Of a stretch of DNA of 64,000 nt, positions 55,091 to 62,367 are shown piece after piece. The position numbers and the translations under genes are program-made. The stretch comes from Chthonomonadales bacterium (GTDB lineage Bacteria > Armatimonadota > Chthonomonadetes > Chthonomonadales > CAJBBX01): contig JADLGO010000013.1 of assembly GCA_020849275.1 (NCBI GenBank), positions 62,001 through 126,000 on the forward strand. Reading direction: 5' to 3'. Below the pieces are notes generated by a model that did no database searches, was not told where the DNA came from, and saw only the letters and a program-made list of their open reading frames with translations. Within the stretch, counting starts at the first letter, position 1, and the number at the start of each line of letters is the position of its first letter.

Positions 55091-58000
55091 CTACCGGCGG
55101 ACGACCAGGGTTTGCGGCGCGCTGACGGTGGCCTGCTCCGGGTTGTAGTACGGATAGGCCTTGCTGAGCGGGGTACGCGCCCGGATCGGGAACCGCGCCT
55201 TGACGGCGTAGCGCAGCTCCAGGCTCGCGCCCGGGTCTAGCTTCGTCAGGTAGACGATGATCTGCCGCTGGGCCAGCGTGTACCGGCTGATGCGCTGCCC
55301 CTTGACGGCGGCCTCCAACTCGTCTGGCACCACGTCGAACCCGGGCGGCACGCCCAGGTCGATCAGCGGCATCTCGGCCACGCGGTTGGTGTGGTTGCGC
55401 ACGGTAACCGTCACGCCGGCCGTGTCGTTCTCCGCGAGCGTGGTCTTGTCGTACTGCACGGCGATCGAGAGCGGCCCGGAGGGTGTCGGCGCCGGGCGAC
55501 CCCACGGCTCGTAGTGACGCGAGGCGATCTGGTAGAGAAGCGACCCGTCGCCCTCGTAGCCCAGGCGCACCTCGTTGCGCCCCGGCTTCAGCCATTCGCG
55601 CAGGTCCACCTGCCGCATCACGTCGCTGTCCTCGGGGGTGATGCGCAGCACGGCGGCGCGGGCGCCGTTGGCCCACACCGTGACGGTGCCCTTGCCCGAG
55701 CCGACGCCGTGAGCGCTGGCGAACAGGAGGGCCTTCAGCGACCAGACGGTGCCCTGTGTGCTGCGCCACGTGCCGAAGCTGTCCTTGGCCTGCACGAGGT
55801 AGGTGAGGACCTTGTTGGCGAAGCCGGCGTTGCGGCCCCAGCGGACCAACCCGTAGGCGGCCAGGCCGGTGGTCTCCAGGTCGGCGCTCTCGTCGCGCGC
55901 GCCGGTGAAGGTCTGGCCACCGCCCTCCCACCACGCCGCCTTGTCGTTCTGCTTGGCGAGGCGGATCAGGGTGTTCGCCGCGTTCGCGGCGGCCTCGCCC
56001 TCGCGGTCCGTCGCCACGAGGAGGTTGAGCGTCAGGGCGAGCGCGTAGGGGTCCGTTGCCTCGCGCCCGTGCTCGCGCACATAGGCGACCGCCTTCTGCA
56101 CCTCGGGCCCCTTGTAGCCGCTCTCGGCGAGCGCCCACGCGATGTAGGCGGCGGCGCGCAGCGCGCCCGTCTGCCGGTTGATGATCCCCTCGGCAATGCC
56201 CTGACCGTCCTCGGGCCAGGTGCCGTCTGGCCTTTGCCGACCGGCCAGCCAGCGCTGGGTACGGTCGATGAGCGCCGGATCGATGTCGTGCACGCGGGCC
56301 ATGTCGCTGAACTCGAGCAGCCCATAGGCGGTGAGCACCTGGTGGGCCGGCGCTTCGCCGAACCAGGAGAAGCCGCCGCCAGGCACCTCGAAAGTGACCA
56401 GGCGCTGGTAGCCGACGTTGATGAACCCCTCCGCCTTCATCTGGATCTCGGGGTTGATGCGCTTGGTGGAGCGCAGGTAATCCGTCACGAGCACGTTCGG
56501 GTAGGTCATGGAGCTGGTCTGCTCGAAGCAGCCGTTCGGCATGCGCAAGATGCCATCGAGGCCCTCGACCACCTGGCTGAAGGCACCGGGATAGAGCTTG
56601 ACCCAGAGCGAGCTCGCGCCCGGGAGGGCGTTGGCGGGGAAGGTGACGGCCTTCGTAACGTCCTTCTCCAGGCGGTCGTTGATGGCGCCGCGCACCTCGC
56701 GGCCGTCGGGGGTCACCGCAACGGTGCGAGCGATCGCGTCGGAGAGCTTGCTCCCGCGTGCCACGACCTTCAGCGTGTGCTGGCCGAGCGCAGTCACGGT
56801 GAGCGGGTAGTGCACCACGCGGACCTCGTTCCTCTTCATGTGGACGGTACGCCGGGCTTCGCCTTCTAGCCTGAACCAGGGCTGCGCCTCCAGCGAAAGT
56901 GTCACATCCTGCTCGCCCGGCAAGTAGTTGTAGACAGCGATCGGGATCTCGACCCGGTCGTTCTGCGTGAGCGATACGGGCAGGTCGATGTCGGCGAAGA
57001 AGTCCTGGAACACCTTGAGCGGGGCCGTCGCGCTTCCCATCTGGCCTTGCGCGCCGCTGGCGAGCATGCTCAGGCGCCAGGTGGTGATCGAGTCGGCCAT
57101 CGGGACGCGCACCTCCGCGCGGCCGCGGTCGTCCGTGATCAGCGCCGGGTTCCAGTACATCGTCTCCGGGAAGTACTGGCGCACGCGCGGCTCCGGCGCT
57201 TCACCCCCCCCGGCGGCCCCGGACTCTGCCCCCTTCCTCAGCGCATTGGCTGGCGCGCCCAAGGCCATGTCGTACGCCGCGGCTCCGGCCGGCGCCGGGG
57301 CGGCCTCCAGCACGCGCATCTCGCGGCCGCGGGCTCCCATCGCAACGATGCCGCCGCCGAACCCGCCTCCCCGCCGCGCCATCCCCTCCGCGGGCGGCGT
57401 GTCGCCAAGGATGTCGTCAAGCGTGCCCCAGCGGCCATCCGAGCCAGCGCTCGTGAGCATGAACCACCCGGAAAGGGCGGTCTGGCCGTAGAGCTCGGGG
57501 CGGTACCGACGGCCCCACGGGTCGGCCACGTCACGTGGGTTCAGGTAGCGGCGGTCTACCAGCGTCTGGAGGCCATTCCCGGCAGCCGGCCAATCGCCGG
57601 TATCCTGGTGGTACTTCTGCGCGGCCCGCTGGATGCGCTCGCGCGCCTCGAGCATCACCTTCACCGCCCTGTCGCGCACCTCCGCGTAGCGGGCCAGGTA
57701 GGTGTTCGCGCGGTAGTCGAACTCGCGCGCGGCCGGCGCCGAGGCGAGGAGCATCGCGGCCGCGCGCTGTCGTGCCGGCTCGGGGACTCCGGGCGCCCGA
57801 TCGCGCAGGACCAGGCTGGAGGGCTTGAGCCCGTGGATCTCGTAGCGCGGCTCCATCAGCTCGCGCTCCAGCATGAAGTAGACCTTCTCGAGCCCCGGCT
57901 GCAGCTCCGAGAGGGCGAAGACGCTCTCGTCCACGATGGCCAGCCCGATGGCGGCGGCCACGGGCTCGTTCGCCCTGCCGCGCACCGCGAAGCGCAGCAG

Positions 58001-59710
58001 CGCCTCCTGGCCCGGCCGGTACTCCTGCCGATCCGGGGTGACGGTCACCGCCAGGTCGTCGGCGGGCGAGACGACCACGGTCCGCGTGTCGCGCACGATG
58101 TCCTCGTTGGGCAGGATACGGTAGGCGTGGACCTGGAGCGTTCCGACCATGTCGGGGGTCAGCGCGATGCTCAGGCCAGCCCGGCCGTTCCGCAGCGGCT
58201 CGGCCCTGGTGAGGATGGTCTGGCGATCGCGGATCACGTCGATATAGAGGGTGCCGGCGCGCGCCGGGGAGACGGCGGCCAGGCCCAGGCGCTCGCCGAC
58301 GCGGCCCAGCGTGCGATCCAGTCGCAGAAGGACGCCGTCGGCGCCGGTCTTCGTCTCGAGGTCGCGCGTCACGGTGCTCGCGTGGCCGTCCGGCGCGGTT
58401 GCCCGCACGCTCAGCGAGACCTTGCCCTCCTTCGGCGTGAACTCATAGACCGCCATGCCGAGCTCGTCGGTGGCGACACGCGCCGCCGGCGCGCCGGTCG
58501 CGCTCACCGCCACTTCGGCACGCTGGATGGGCTCGCCGTCCGGGGTGCCGCAGGCGATGTAGACGCGGTTCGGCACGCCCGGCACGAGCTGCGGGCTCTC
58601 CGGCACCACCGCCACCAGGACGGGGTCCTTGACCACCGGAACGCTCCTGCTCTGCATCTGCTGATGGTCGGCGGTGTCGGTCAGGCGCACCTGAAACTCG
58701 GCGACCGCCTTGCCCTGCTCGAACGGCTGCCCGACGAACGCATTCGGCAGCGCGTACTCGAACGTGTAGGCTCCGGCGGCGTCGGTCTTGCCCTCGAGCT
58801 CGGCGAGCTTCGTGACTCCGATGTCGAGTGTGTTGACGGTGATGGCGACGCGGCCGCCGGCCACGGGCTTGCCGAAAAAGTAGTCGGCCTGCACAGTGCC
58901 CTTCACCGTGTCACCCGGCAGGTAATAGGCGCGATCCGTGCTCACGACCACCTTGAACTTGGGCAGCACGTAGCGCTCGACTCGCACCTTCTTCTCGGCC
59001 TCGCCGCCGGGGAGCACGGCGCGCACCGTGAATGTGCCCATGTTCACCTCGTCGGCCAGCTCGAAGTCAGCGGAGCCGACGCCGAAGCGCGAGAGTTGCT
59101 GGCGTGCCTTGAACACCTTGTTGCCGCGCGCGTCCTCCACCTCAAACGTGACGGGCTGGTCGGCCAGGGGACGGCGGTTGGCGGTGTCGAGGCCGAGCGC
59201 GCGCACATGGATGGTCTGGCCGGGCTGGTAGACGGGCTTATCGGTGGTGAGCAGGATCCGTTCGCCCTGCTCGAGCTGGATGCGCTGCACGACGTGGTCC
59301 TGGCCGAGCGCCGCATCAACGTCGACCTTCAGGTCGTACGGACCGGCCGGGCTCGGCGGCGCGGTGAAGCGGGCGTCGAGCGTGCCCAGGTCGTTCGTGC
59401 GGCCGGCGTACAGCCGGACCTCGGCCGCCCCGCGCTGGCCGGCCTTCTTGTCGGCCGCCGGTGCGAGAGCGATCCGCACGGCGGCGCGAAGCGGCTTGCC
59501 GGTGCGATGGTCGCTGACGATGACGCGGAGCGCGGCGGGCCCGCCGCGCAGCCAGCGCGACTGCCCGAGCACGTCGGTCTCCAGTGGGCTCACGTAGAAC
59601 GGATCGGCGCGTTGGGCGGCGGCCTGGCGCGCCCGCTGCGCCAGGGCCACGAGCGCGCACAGGCTGAAGCACGCGGCGATGGCGAAGCCAGAAGTCAGGA
59701 TCTTCCTCAC
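55091..59710 (-). CDS. Alpha-2-macroglobulin with thioester and an inserted GspG-like pseudopilin domain
   Basis: A 1539-residue exported protease-trap-like protein. Signal peptide 1-25. N-terminal macroglobulin domains (LTTDKPVYQPGQTIHVRAL, VVVSTDRAYYLPGDTVKGT) run to about 640. At about 666-766 lies a GspG/type II pseudopilin globular domain: IQRAAQKYHQDTGDWPAAGNGLQTLV, DPWGRRYRPE, SAGSDGRWGTLDDI. The alpha-2-macroglobulin domain follows (YFPETMYWNPALITDDRGRAEV), then the thioester GCFEQ with Cys1061 and Gln1064, the complement-like helical toroid and the receptor-like C-terminal domain. GTG 59710 follows GGGGAGGAG. No lipobox, so periplasmic or secreted. No pbpC neighbour. Confidence 0.93.
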   Translation of the reverse strand: MRKILTSGFAIAACFSLCALVALAQRARQAAAQRADPFYVSPLETDVLGQSRWLRGGPAALRVIVSDHRTGKPLRAAVRIALAPAADKKAGQRGAAEVRLYAGRTNDLGTLDARFTAPPSPAGPYDLKVDVDAALGQDHVVQRIQLEQGERILLTTDKPVYQPGQTIHVRALGLDTANRRPLADQPVTFEVEDARGNKVFKARQQLSRFGVGSADFELADEVNMGTFTVRAVLPGGEAEKKVRVERYVLPKFKVVVSTDRAYYLPGDTVKGTVQADYFFGKPVAGGRVAITVNTLDIGVTKLAELEGKTDAAGAYTFEYALPNAFVGQPFEQGKAVAEFQVRLTDTADHQQMQSRSVPVVKDPVLVAVVPESPQLVPGVPNRVYIACGTPDGEPIQRAEVAVSATGAPAARVATDELGMAVYEFTPKEGKVSLSVRATAPDGHASTVTRDLETKTGADGVLLRLDRTLGRVGERLGLAAVSPARAGTLYIDVIRDRQTILTRAEPLRNGRAGLSIALTPDMVGTLQVHAYRILPNEDIVRDTRTVVVSPADDLAVTVTPDRQEYRPGQEALLRFAVRGRANEPVAAAIGLAIVDESVFALSELQPGLEKVYFMLERELMEPRYEIHGLKPSSLVLRDRAPGVPEPARQRAAAMLLASAPAAREFDYRANTYLARYAEVRDRAVKVMLEARERIQRAAQKYHQDTGDWPAAGNGLQTLVDRRYLNPRDVADPWGRRYRPELYGQTALSGWFMLTSAGSDGRWGTLDDILGDTPPAEGMARRGGGFGGGIVAMGARGREMRVLEAAPAPAGAAAYDMALGAPANALRKGAESGAAGGGEAPEPRVRQYFPETMYWNPALITDDRGRAEVRVPMADSITTWRLSMLASGAQGQMGSATAPLKVFQDFFADIDLPVSLTQNDRVEIPIAVYNYLPGEQDVTLSLEAQPWFRLEGEARRTVHMKRNEVRVVHYPLTVTALGQHTLKVVARGSKLSDAIARTVAVTPDGREVRGAINDRLEKDVTKAVTFPANALPGASSLWVKLYPGAFSQVVEGLDGILRMPNGCFEQTSSMTYPNVLVTDYLRSTKRINPEIQMKAEGFINVGYQRLVTFEVPGGGFSWFGEAPAHQVLTAYGLLEFSDMARVHDIDPALIDRTQRWLAGRQRPDGTWPEDGQGIAEGIINRQTGALRAAAYIAWALAESGYKGPEVQKAVAYVREHGREATDPYALALTLNLLVATDREGEAAANAANTLIRLAKQNDKAAWWEGGGQTFTGARDESADLETTGLAAYGLVRWGRNAGFANKVLTYLVQAKDSFGTWRSTQGTVWSLKALLFASAHGVGSGKGTVTVWANGARAAVLRITPEDSDVMRQVDLREWLKPGRNEVRLGYEGDGSLLYQIASRHYEPWGRPAPTPSGPLSIAVQYDKTTLAENDTAGVTVTVRNHTNRVAEMPLIDLGVPPGFDVVPDELEAAVKGQRISRYTLAQRQIIVYLTKLDPGASLELRYAVKARFPIRARTPLSKAYPYYNPEQATVSAPQTLVVRR

Positions 59711-59969: not shown

Positions 59970-60746
59970 ATGGAGACGGCCCCGGCGGCGGCGAACACGC
60001 AACAGACGGACCGGGCCGCGGGTGAGCTGCTCGGGCGGCAGCGCGAATGGCTGGCCCGATTCTTCGCCAGGCGCGTGTCGCGCCGCGAAGACGCCGAGGA
60101 TCTGGTGCAGGACGTGCTCGTGCGTGCGAGCGCTTCCATGGCGGCGTGGCGCGGTGACTGCCCGTTCTCGCAGTGGGTACTGGTCATCGCCCGGCGCGCG
60201 CTCTGCAATTACTACGAGCGCGACCCCTACCGCCGCGGCCGGCTCGTGCCGCTGTCTCCGCGCGAGGAGGCGGCCACCCTCGACCCGCAACGCGAGGGGA
60301 CCGGAGCGGGTCCCTCTCTACAGGCAGAGAGCCGCGCCGTGGCGGAGCGGTTGGCCGCGCACATGGAGCGTGTCTGCACCACGGACGAGCGGCGCGTGAT
60401 CGCGCTGACCTACCAGGGCGAGTCGCTGGACGAGGCCGCGCAATTCCTGGGCAAGTCACCGTCGACGGTGCGCTCGCTCTATCGCCGGAGCCGCCAGAAG
60501 CTGCTGGCACACGTTGTGCTGCACGACCCGGACCTGCTCGGCGGGAGGGCAGCGATCGACGAGGCCTGGGCTCGGGCCGCGGCGTCCGAGGAGGCGGGCG
60601 AGCGCCCGACGAGCCAGGAGAGGAGCGCCTGGGAGGACCCGCGGGCGCGACTGGAGGCCTTCCGCTCGGCCTGCCTGAAAATGGCGCGCTACCTTCCGCT
60701 CGCGGCGGTGGTTCTGCGCGCGGCACTGGAGCATGGCGGTGGATAG
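59970..60746 (+). CDS. ECF-type sigma factor with C-terminal extension
   Basis: A 258-residue sigma-70 family factor. Region 2 is WLARFFARRVSRREDAEDLVQDVLVRASASMAAWRG, then SQWVLVIARRALCNYY; region 4 is TTDERRVIALTYQGESLDEAAQFLGKSPSTVRSLYRRSRQKL. About 75 residues follow region 4 (VLHDPDLLGGRAAIDEAWARAAASEEAG...), which is unusual for ECF factors and may form an interaction module. It overlaps the anti-sigma gene by 14 bases. Divergent from the alpha-2-macroglobulin gene, a plausible target. Confidence 0.9.
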   Translation: METAPAAANTQQTDRAAGELLGRQREWLARFFARRVSRREDAEDLVQDVLVRASASMAAWRGDCPFSQWVLVIARRALCNYYERDPYRRGRLVPLSPREEAATLDPQREGTGAGPSLQAESRAVAERLAAHMERVCTTDERRVIALTYQGESLDEAAQFLGKSPSTVRSLYRRSRQKLLAHVVLHDPDLLGGRAAIDEAWARAAASEEAGERPTSQERSAWEDPRARLEAFRSACLKMARYLPLAAVVLRAALEHGGG

Positions 60747-62367
60747 ACGTGACGAGCCGATGGCGGCGGAGCGGCGGTGGGGCGAGGCGCTCGCGGCGCG
60801 CGCGGCGGAGACGTGCCTGGAGGCCGACGAGCTGATCGCGCTGGCATCGAGCCGGCCGTGGCGCCGCCGCGCGGCCCGCCTCGACCACCTGAGCGCGTGC
60901 CCGCGTTGCCGCGCTGCCCTCCGCGATCTGCGAGCCCTTGATCGGGCGCGGCCGGGCGGCCCCTGGTGGCGGGCGTCGGCCGGGCCGGCTCGCGGGCTTG
61001 CCCTCGCCGCCGCTGCCACCGCCTGCGCCGTCGTCCTGGGCGCCGTGATCGCCTTTCGGGTGGGGCCGAGCGGTGCCGAACGCGTGCAGGTGGCCGTCGC
61101 TCCGCTCGCCGAGCGCGCCGAGGCTCTGGCCGGCGGCGACCGCTCGCGCGTCGCCCCGCCAGCGCCTCGGGCGCGCGAGGAGGCTTACGGCGAGGCCGGA
61201 GCGGCGAGGCCGCGCGACATCGGCCCCGCAAACGCGAAGCGGCTCGCCGTGCCGTCGCGCCCAGGCGCGACGAGGGCGCGCATCCGCGGCGTCCCTCTCG
61301 CGCCCCCCTCCCCTGGCCCACGAAGCCTCGCCATTGCGGAGGGGCTCGACTTTCGCGATGGGGCCGTCTACGAGGCCGGGCTCCGCGTGCCGGGCCTTAC
61401 ACCGGGTCGGGCCGGCCAGCTTATGGCCGACCTCGCGGGCGATGCGCGCGCGGCGGAGCGCGAAGGGCAAGCGGTGCGCCTGGGGGCCGGCGCGGCCGCG
61501 CCCCTCGGTGCGGTAGCCGCCCCAACCGCCGGCGCGGGGGCTGCTGGCTTTGGCGCGCTGGCGCCGGCCGGTGCGCCGCCGGGCCGAGCCATCGGACGGG
61601 CGGCGGGCGGCCACGAGAACGAGCGCGGGCGGATCGCCGCGCCCGTCCCCGGCGGGCCGGCCGAGGAGGACGACTTCGGCGGCGGGAAGCTGGCTGGCGC
61701 GGGTGGCAGCGGCGGGCCGAGCGCCCCGCGTCCGCTGCTCGTCGCGCCGGATCCCGCCAACTACGGCCTGCTCGAGGAGCGCCCCGTGTTTCGGGTTTCG
61801 CCCCCGGCCGACCCCCGGCTGTACCGGTTGGAGCTCCTGGCGGAGCCGGCCGGCCCGCCGGCGGCTCGCGAGCAGCGACGCCAGGACGATGGCGCGGCCC
61901 GGCCGCTCGACGCTCTTCGGAAGGCCGTGCCGGTGGGGCCGGCCGGCGCGCCGACCTCGGCCCCGGTGTCCGTGCTGGAGCTCCGGGACGGCGGCGTGGC
62001 GGCGATCCGGCCGGTCGCGCCGCTGAAGCCCGGACTCGACTACCTCTTCCGCGTGCAGCCGACGCCCCTTGCGGCCCCCGAGCCGAACGCACCGCCATCA
62101 GGCCTGTCATTCCGCGCGCTGACCGTCGAGGAGCGAGAGCAGGTTCTCTGGGCCCGGGCCCATGCCGCCAGGGCGCCCCTGGCGAGCGTGCTGGTGCTGT
62201 ACGGGGCCGGACGCTACGCCGAGGCGCTCGATGCGCTGCGCCACGCTCAGCCCGGCAAGCGGACCGACGCGTGGCGTGCCCGGATCCGGGCGTCGCTCAG
62301 CGAGCGAACGCTGGCCGAGCCGCCCCCGGGCGCGCCGGCCCAGGCGGCGCCCCGGCCCTCCCGTTAG
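60733..62367 (+). CDS. Zinc-finger anti-sigma factor with long outer region
   Basis: A 544-residue membrane protein. The N-terminal zinc anti-sigma motif HLSACPRC (H-x3-C-x2-C) lies at about 53-60. One membrane helix spans about 87-108. The remaining 430 residues are very rich in Ala, Gly, Pro and Arg to about 320. Then comes an ordered beta domain (NYGLLEERPVFRVSPPADPRLYRLELLAEPAG, AIRPVAPLKPGLDYLFRVQPTP) and a TPR-like end (VLVLYGAGRYAEALDALRHAQPGK). The outer part may sense envelope stress. Ends four bases into the convergent glycosyltransferase gene. Confidence 0.8.
   Translation: MAVDRRDEPMAAERRWGEALAARAAETCLEADELIALASSRPWRRRAARLDHLSACPRCRAALRDLRALDRARPGGPWWRASAGPARGLALAAAATACAVVLGAVIAFRVGPSGAERVQVAVAPLAERAEALAGGDRSRVAPPAPRAREEAYGEAGAARPRDIGPANAKRLAVPSRPGATRARIRGVPLAPPSPGPRSLAIAEGLDFRDGAVYEAGLRVPGLTPGRAGQLMADLAGDARAAEREGQAVRLGAGAAAPLGAVAAPTAGAGAAGFGALAPAGAPPGRAIGRAAGGHENERGRIAAPVPGGPAEEDDFGGGKLAGAGGSGGPSAPRPLLVAPDPANYGLLEERPVFRVSPPADPRLYRLELLAEPAGPPAAREQRRQDDGAARPLDALRKAVPVGPAGAPTSAPVSVLELRDGGVAAIRPVAPLKPGLDYLFRVQPTPLAAPEPNAPPSGLSFRALTVEEREQVLWARAHAARAPLASVLVLYGAGRYAEALDALRHAQPGKRTDAWRARIRASLSERTLAEPPPGAPAQAAPRPSR

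Follow-up and report, generated by a model that had tools for sequence, protein, structure and literature searches.

How does a globular domain of the type II secretion pseudopilin type fit into the bait region of a bacterial alpha-2-macroglobulin (A2M), and what might it do there? In the A2M family, a break in the continuity of the bait releases a plug and exposes the thioester. The question was raised by an earlier note, made from the sequence alone, which had read a GspG-like domain at the bait position of an A2M encoded in the window, the 64,000-nucleotide stretch of DNA analysed here.

Overall architecture of the protein

The A2M gene occupies positions 55091..59710 on the minus strand, as do all parts of it located below. 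It starts with a GTG codon at 59710, upstream of which lies a ribosome-binding-like sequence, GGGGAGGAG. According to its translation and to Pfam, the product of about 1539 amino acids comprises a signal peptide, MG domains, the bait insert, and the A2M, TED and receptor domains. Residue numbers follow the translation P0001 (1541 residues), in which the start codon is residue 3. The signal peptide, VRKILTSGFAIAACFSLCALVALAQRA (59630..59710), was recognised from the sequence and as a hydrophobic segment in a Kyte-Doolittle scan. MG2, MG3, A2M_BRD, A2M, TED_complement and A2M_recep each score above the Pfam cut-off, and the MG2, A2M_BRD, A2M, TED and receptor domains stand in Type I order. A2M_BRD (PF07703, 53.4 bits) covers residues 464-602 (57911..58327), A2M (PF00207, 73.2 bits) residues 852-941 (56894..57163), the thioester domain (PF07678, 142.3 bits) residues 1046-1330 (55727..56581) and the receptor-binding-type C-terminal domain (PF07677, 38.1 bits) residues 1447-1530 (55127..55378). 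The thioester motif GCFEQ was found in the translation at 56519..56533, intact as the earlier note had stated, and is invariant in the ortholog alignment.

ECAM of E. coli and Sa-A2M of Salmonella likewise carry a signal peptide, MG, A2M_BRD, A2M and TED domains, a CxEQ motif and a bait before the post-bait strand (PMC4498604, PMC5764988). Compared with these two proteins, the window A2M has a long bait, of about 220 residues in total, which contains a folded T2SSG domain, and PBP1c was not found among its scanned neighbours.

A pseudopilin-type fold in the bait region

Positions 57412-57715 (minus strand) translate from YRANTYLARYAEV to SAGSDGRWGTLDD, residues 668-768. The T2SSG/GspG-fold domain was delimited at residues 671-769 (57410..57706) by Pfam, a PDB profile search, AlphaFold2, Foldseek and a tree. 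It lies between the A2M_BRD and A2M domains, that is, in the bait position. A conserved arm, VDESVFALSELQPGLEKVYFMLERELMEPRYEIHGL (57827..57934), precedes the insert, with a mean pairwise identity of 0.74 among 54 orthologs. Sequence comparison shows that this arm is common to the window A2M and the Anaerolineae orthologs, though the latter hold a different insert. Between arm and domain, the ortholog alignments define a variable N-linker with a short helix, RQRAAAMLLASAP (57707..57826), the linker identity being 0.22.

The Pfam T2SSG profile (PF08334, cut-off 21) gives 23.7 bits for residues 693-767 when the entire protein is scanned, and 31 bits (E 3e-7) for the isolated domain. Scanned alone, 21 of 22 ortholog domains gave a T2SSG match (E up to 1). 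When the PDB was searched with a profile of 22 orthologs, eight GspG structures were retrieved with E-values of 6e-9 to 5e-6, the next match having an E-value of only 0.04. An AlphaFold2 model of the domain, computed with 14 orthologs, reached a pLDDT of 84.6 and a pTM of 0.73. The best 11 Foldseek matches of this model are all major pseudopilins (probability 0.99-1.00, TM about 0.42-0.56), with modest E-values of 1e-3 to 1.5e-2. Taken together, profiles and predicted structures identify the insert between the MG6 arm and the post-bait strand as a genuine T2SSG/GspG-fold domain. Both the profile search and the structure prediction bear out the earlier assignment of a GspG-like domain at this position. 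A chance match to PF08334 is ruled out by the Pfam, PDB profile and Foldseek results, the ortholog scans and the tree. A frameshift or gene-fusion artefact is ruled out by a frame that is open in dozens of orthologs from many families. The confident models also rule out an ordinary disordered bait for the T2SSG domain itself; such a bait is accepted for the linker that follows it.

The calcium loop

The near-invariant residues of the insert are few among the 54 orthologs: an Ala/Leu core, D732 of the DPWG motif, and a loop S-x-G-x-D-x4-T-x-D-D. The pattern G.D....[TS].D[DE] occurs in all 54 ortholog baits and nowhere else within the same proteins. In the window protein the loop reads GSDGRWGTLDD (residues 758-768, 57413..57445) and fits the full PERCAL consensus, G-x-D-G-x-x-[GN]-[TN]-x-D-D (PMC3396595); a strict fit is found in 19 of the 54 orthologs. 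Moreover, residues A757, D760, R762, T765 and D768 align, with the same spacing, with the calcium ligands of the GspG structure 3G20, P114 O, D117, V119 O, T122 and D125 (PMC3396595). The calcium-site-like ending described in the earlier note thereby acquires a residue-for-residue counterpart in a calcium-bound GspG, and calcium binding by the A2M-borne domain is strongly predicted. Fold, DPWG motif and calcium loop are all common to this domain and to GspG, PulG and EpsG. The PERCAL inserts of bacterial animal-type peroxidases carry the same loop, but bare, whereas in the window A2M it stands within a whole T2SSG domain (PMC3396595). One further bait, at L084:1791-2732 (minus strand), combines T2SSG with a dockerin-like second calcium-type repeat, which at 17.2 bits falls short of its cut-off (22.9).

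Could calcium act as a gate? Loss of calcium, by outer membrane damage or chelation, would then unfold the domain into extra cleavable bait, and the trap would be armed by a breach of the envelope. Very few residues in the entire bait are invariant, and these include the ligand positions. PulG crystallised without calcium has a misfolded C-terminus (PMC6692295), and calcium binding at 12-79 uM is on record for the PERCAL peptide and domain (PMC3396595). However, a purely structural calcium predicts the same conservation, and a ready disordered bait already exists in the larger model described below. Such gating is considered unlikely.

Linker, plug and the probable bait

A 463-residue AlphaFold2 model spanning MG6 to MG7 was built with 15 sequences; its overall confidence is low (pTM 0.36). 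Within it the T2SSG domain has a pLDDT of about 74-92, and the 78 residues after the domain have a pLDDT of about 26-33. The flanks of the model match human A2ML1, CD109, C3/C5, ECAM and Salmonella A2M. In the window protein the C-linker comprises 72 residues (770-841, 57194..57409) and is rich in Gly, Ala, Pro, Arg and Met. It is hypervariable among the 54 orthologs, with a length of 52-135 residues, a mean pairwise identity of 0.19 and 36% Gly plus Ala. It is followed by the alpha-prime-NT plug EPRVRQYFPET (57161..57193), in which R846 and F849, both invariant in the ortholog alignment, are the counterparts of R732 and F735 of human A2M. In native human A2M, the region to which these two alpha-prime-NT residues belong plugs a channel (PMC9352918).

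The C-linker, residues 770-841, is the probable cleavable bait. Since a disordered linker lies between the domain and the intact YFPET plug, the bait is supplemented, not replaced. The earlier note had left both options standing; the unstructured segment 770-841, which separates the domain from the YFPET strand, speaks for the first and against the second.

We favour the reading, with a probability of roughly 0.55, that the product of the window gene is a Type I bacterial A2M, exported and with a thioester, whose bait has two parts: a folded GspG-type head, probably with calcium bound, and after it a disordered linker open to cleavage, to which the plug is joined. The head derives from the globular part of a GspG-type pseudopilin. 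Proteases would cut the disordered, fast-evolving linker, and this cleavage would free the plug and expose the thioester as in other members of the family. The T2SSG knob would remain with the N-terminal half and, stabilised by calcium, would serve as a spacer by which the bait is positioned and shielded, much like the folded ANA domain at the same position in complement C3/C4/C5. In human A2M a longer bait is predisposed to collapse (PMC9352918), so it is not evident that the human trigger would work with some 220 residues of bait.

If the variable N-linker were cut as well, the T2SSG domain could be freed, which counts against its remaining attached. The two variable linkers that flank the domain, and the ANA domain at the same position in C3/C4/C5, lend themselves to an anaphylatoxin-like release, whereby the calcium-bound domain would be liberated to act as a signal or to compete with the assembly of pseudopili. 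No anaphylatoxin family match was found with Pfam, and release seems quite improbable. The parallel with complement C3/C4/C5 concerns the presence of a folded domain at a cleavable position (PMC9352918). The fold of the window domain is unrelated (pseudopilin, not anaphylatoxin), the disordered linker is kept, and no N-terminal furin-type processing is known for the window A2M.

Distribution, origin and selection

A search for the same insert, proposed in the earlier note, was rewarded in Armatimonadota: a T2SSG domain inside a long A2M-type ORF was found in 70 of 291 genomes, belonging to 28 families. A post-bait profile search found GCFEQ orthologs in 67 Armatimonadota genomes, and in 66 of these they are of the T2SSG type. 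The insert was not found in 201 sampled Chloroflexota genomes. A tree computed from only 105 columns places the 49 A2M-borne domains in one clade, apart from 18 GspGs of Armatimonadota, with a support of 100/100, which is consistent with a single acquisition of the A2M-borne domain relative to GspG. A tree of the flanks also groups the T2SSG-type A2Ms, without resolution at the base of the group. The dN/dS of the domain in eleven pairs is mostly 0.04-0.25, with two pairs at 0.45 and 0.55, and is usually greater than that of MG7 and smaller than that of the linker. These ratios indicate that the insert is under purifying selection.

A phage source was rejected: no PHROGs match was obtained and no relative was found among viral contigs. 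A2Ms borne on plasmids of other phyla are only distant, with less than 30% identity in the best places. One genome, G046, holds a second A2M-like protein (L087:1746-5984, minus strand) with a T2SSG score of 24.5 bits and a TED match, without a CxEQ thioester. In genome G197 the A2M is split into L077 and L078 (G197:C1 near 684606 and 2968380), which lie beside N runs, with a bait end in both; this is probably an assembly join and not a real fission.

Related A2Ms with other inserts

The genome of the window holds a second A2M (GCTEQ, C32), whose bait is short and lacks the insert. Four Armatimonadota GCFEQ paralogs have membrane helices in the bait (L073:2542-3303 (-), L074:2344-3099 (-), L075:2677-3483 (+) and L076:2323-3246 (-)), and three of their genomes (G194, G214 and G230) hold a T2SSG-type A2M too. 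Dozens of type IV pilins encoded in the same genome as L073 match the last bait helix of this protein, with up to 65% identity over 51 residues and E-values down to 2e-13. This helix has lost glutamate 5 and the processing site, and is identified from these matches as a type IV pilin N-terminal helix. The similarity is alike for L074 (40 bits) and weaker for L075 and L076. Genomes G196 and G000 contain about 110 and 74 matches, respectively, to a pilin N-terminal helix. In the Anaerolineae orthologs the bait is occupied by some six predicted membrane helices, and every second turn between them has a positive loop (L045:3729-4769, L046:7681-8700, L047:1779-2822 and L048:3150-4220, all on the plus strand). 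No convincing family was found for the membrane inserts in Pfam or NCBIfam. The flanking arm and the YFPET strand are common to the window protein, the Armatimonadota membrane-helix paralogs and the Anaerolineae orthologs.

Bait regions are permissive, all-Gly/Ser ones included, and the presence of membrane helices at the same position in related proteins would fit a neutral relic, an old fusion persisting as the bait tolerates inserts. However, the T2SSG domain has been kept in 28 families, with the calcium loop in 54 of 54 orthologs and a dN/dS well below 1, and a neutral relic is extremely unlikely.

Loss of pilin assembly features and genomic context

Neither a prepilin peptidase motif, (G)FTLIE, nor a hydrophobic segment or N-terminal membrane helix was found in the insert, whose helix is charged (sequence and Kyte-Doolittle scan). 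In this respect the window domain, embedded in a 1541-residue protein, differs from GspG, PulG and EpsG. Its score against the GspG equivalog TIGR01710 is 23.4 bits, far from the cut-off of 88.85. Because the prepilin motif and the membrane helix are both absent, the A2M-borne domain, judged by its sequence, cannot be a pilus subunit.

No T2SS genes were found among the conserved flanking ORFs or the scanned window neighbours of the A2M. A divergent ECF-type sigma factor (Sigma70_r2, r4_2) and, downstream of it, a protein without a Pfam match, perhaps an anti-sigma-like partner, lie at 59970-62367 (plus strand). Adjacency of sigma factor and A2M is not conserved among relatives. An operon link to secretion genes or to this sigma factor was rejected, no neighbour being kept beyond close relatives.

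The A2M-borne domain is present in eight genomes that are at least 92% complete (G032, G043, G063, G183, G197, G219, G221 and G230), yet no PF08334 match in them has an E-value below 5e-9. By contrast, clear stand-alone GspGs from Armatimonadota mostly give E-values of 1e-17 to 1e-41. Docking to a GspG pseudopilus, as read from these genomes, cannot be a general role. The homology of the domain to GspG, and the recurrence of the pilin theme in a second set of paralogs with a pilin N-terminal helix in the bait, could still suggest that the trap is tethered to pseudopili or type IV pili through its pseudopilin head. This is highly improbable in view of the missing assembly features, the A2M genes without T2SS neighbours, the eight genomes and the divergence of the domain, whose mean pairwise identity is 31% among the 54 orthologs. 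The tie to pseudopilus-like fibres proposed in the earlier note is not upheld by these findings.

Comparison with modular pilins and implications

In modular type IV pilins such as PilB of Streptococcus sanguinis, the pilin module bears domains to which it is not related (PMC8179133). The window A2M takes the opposite direction, with a pilin head grafted into a non-pilin. In the open-licence papers searched, no article was found that names alpha-2-macroglobulin together with pseudopilins, or alpha2-macroglobulin with Armatimonadetes.

It is possible, if doubtful, that the bait position is a socket repeatedly loaded with envelope modules: in Armatimonadota with a pseudopilin head or, in the paralogs, with a membrane bundle that terminates in the N-terminal helix of a pilin, and in Anaerolineae with a bundle of six membrane helices. 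Such inserts would link the trigger physically to the membrane or to filaments made of pilins, or would sense calcium there, so that the trap would report envelope damage. On the favoured reading of a GspG-type head followed by a cleavable linker, the folded domain at the cleavable site parallels the ANA domain of complement with an unrelated fold. A2Ms with a T2SSG bait offer a natural test of the amount of structure with which the trigger can cope, and of whether sensing is added by such domains. The recurrence of membrane inserts, and of others derived from pilins, suggests a module-capture site at the bait position, linked to the cell envelope.
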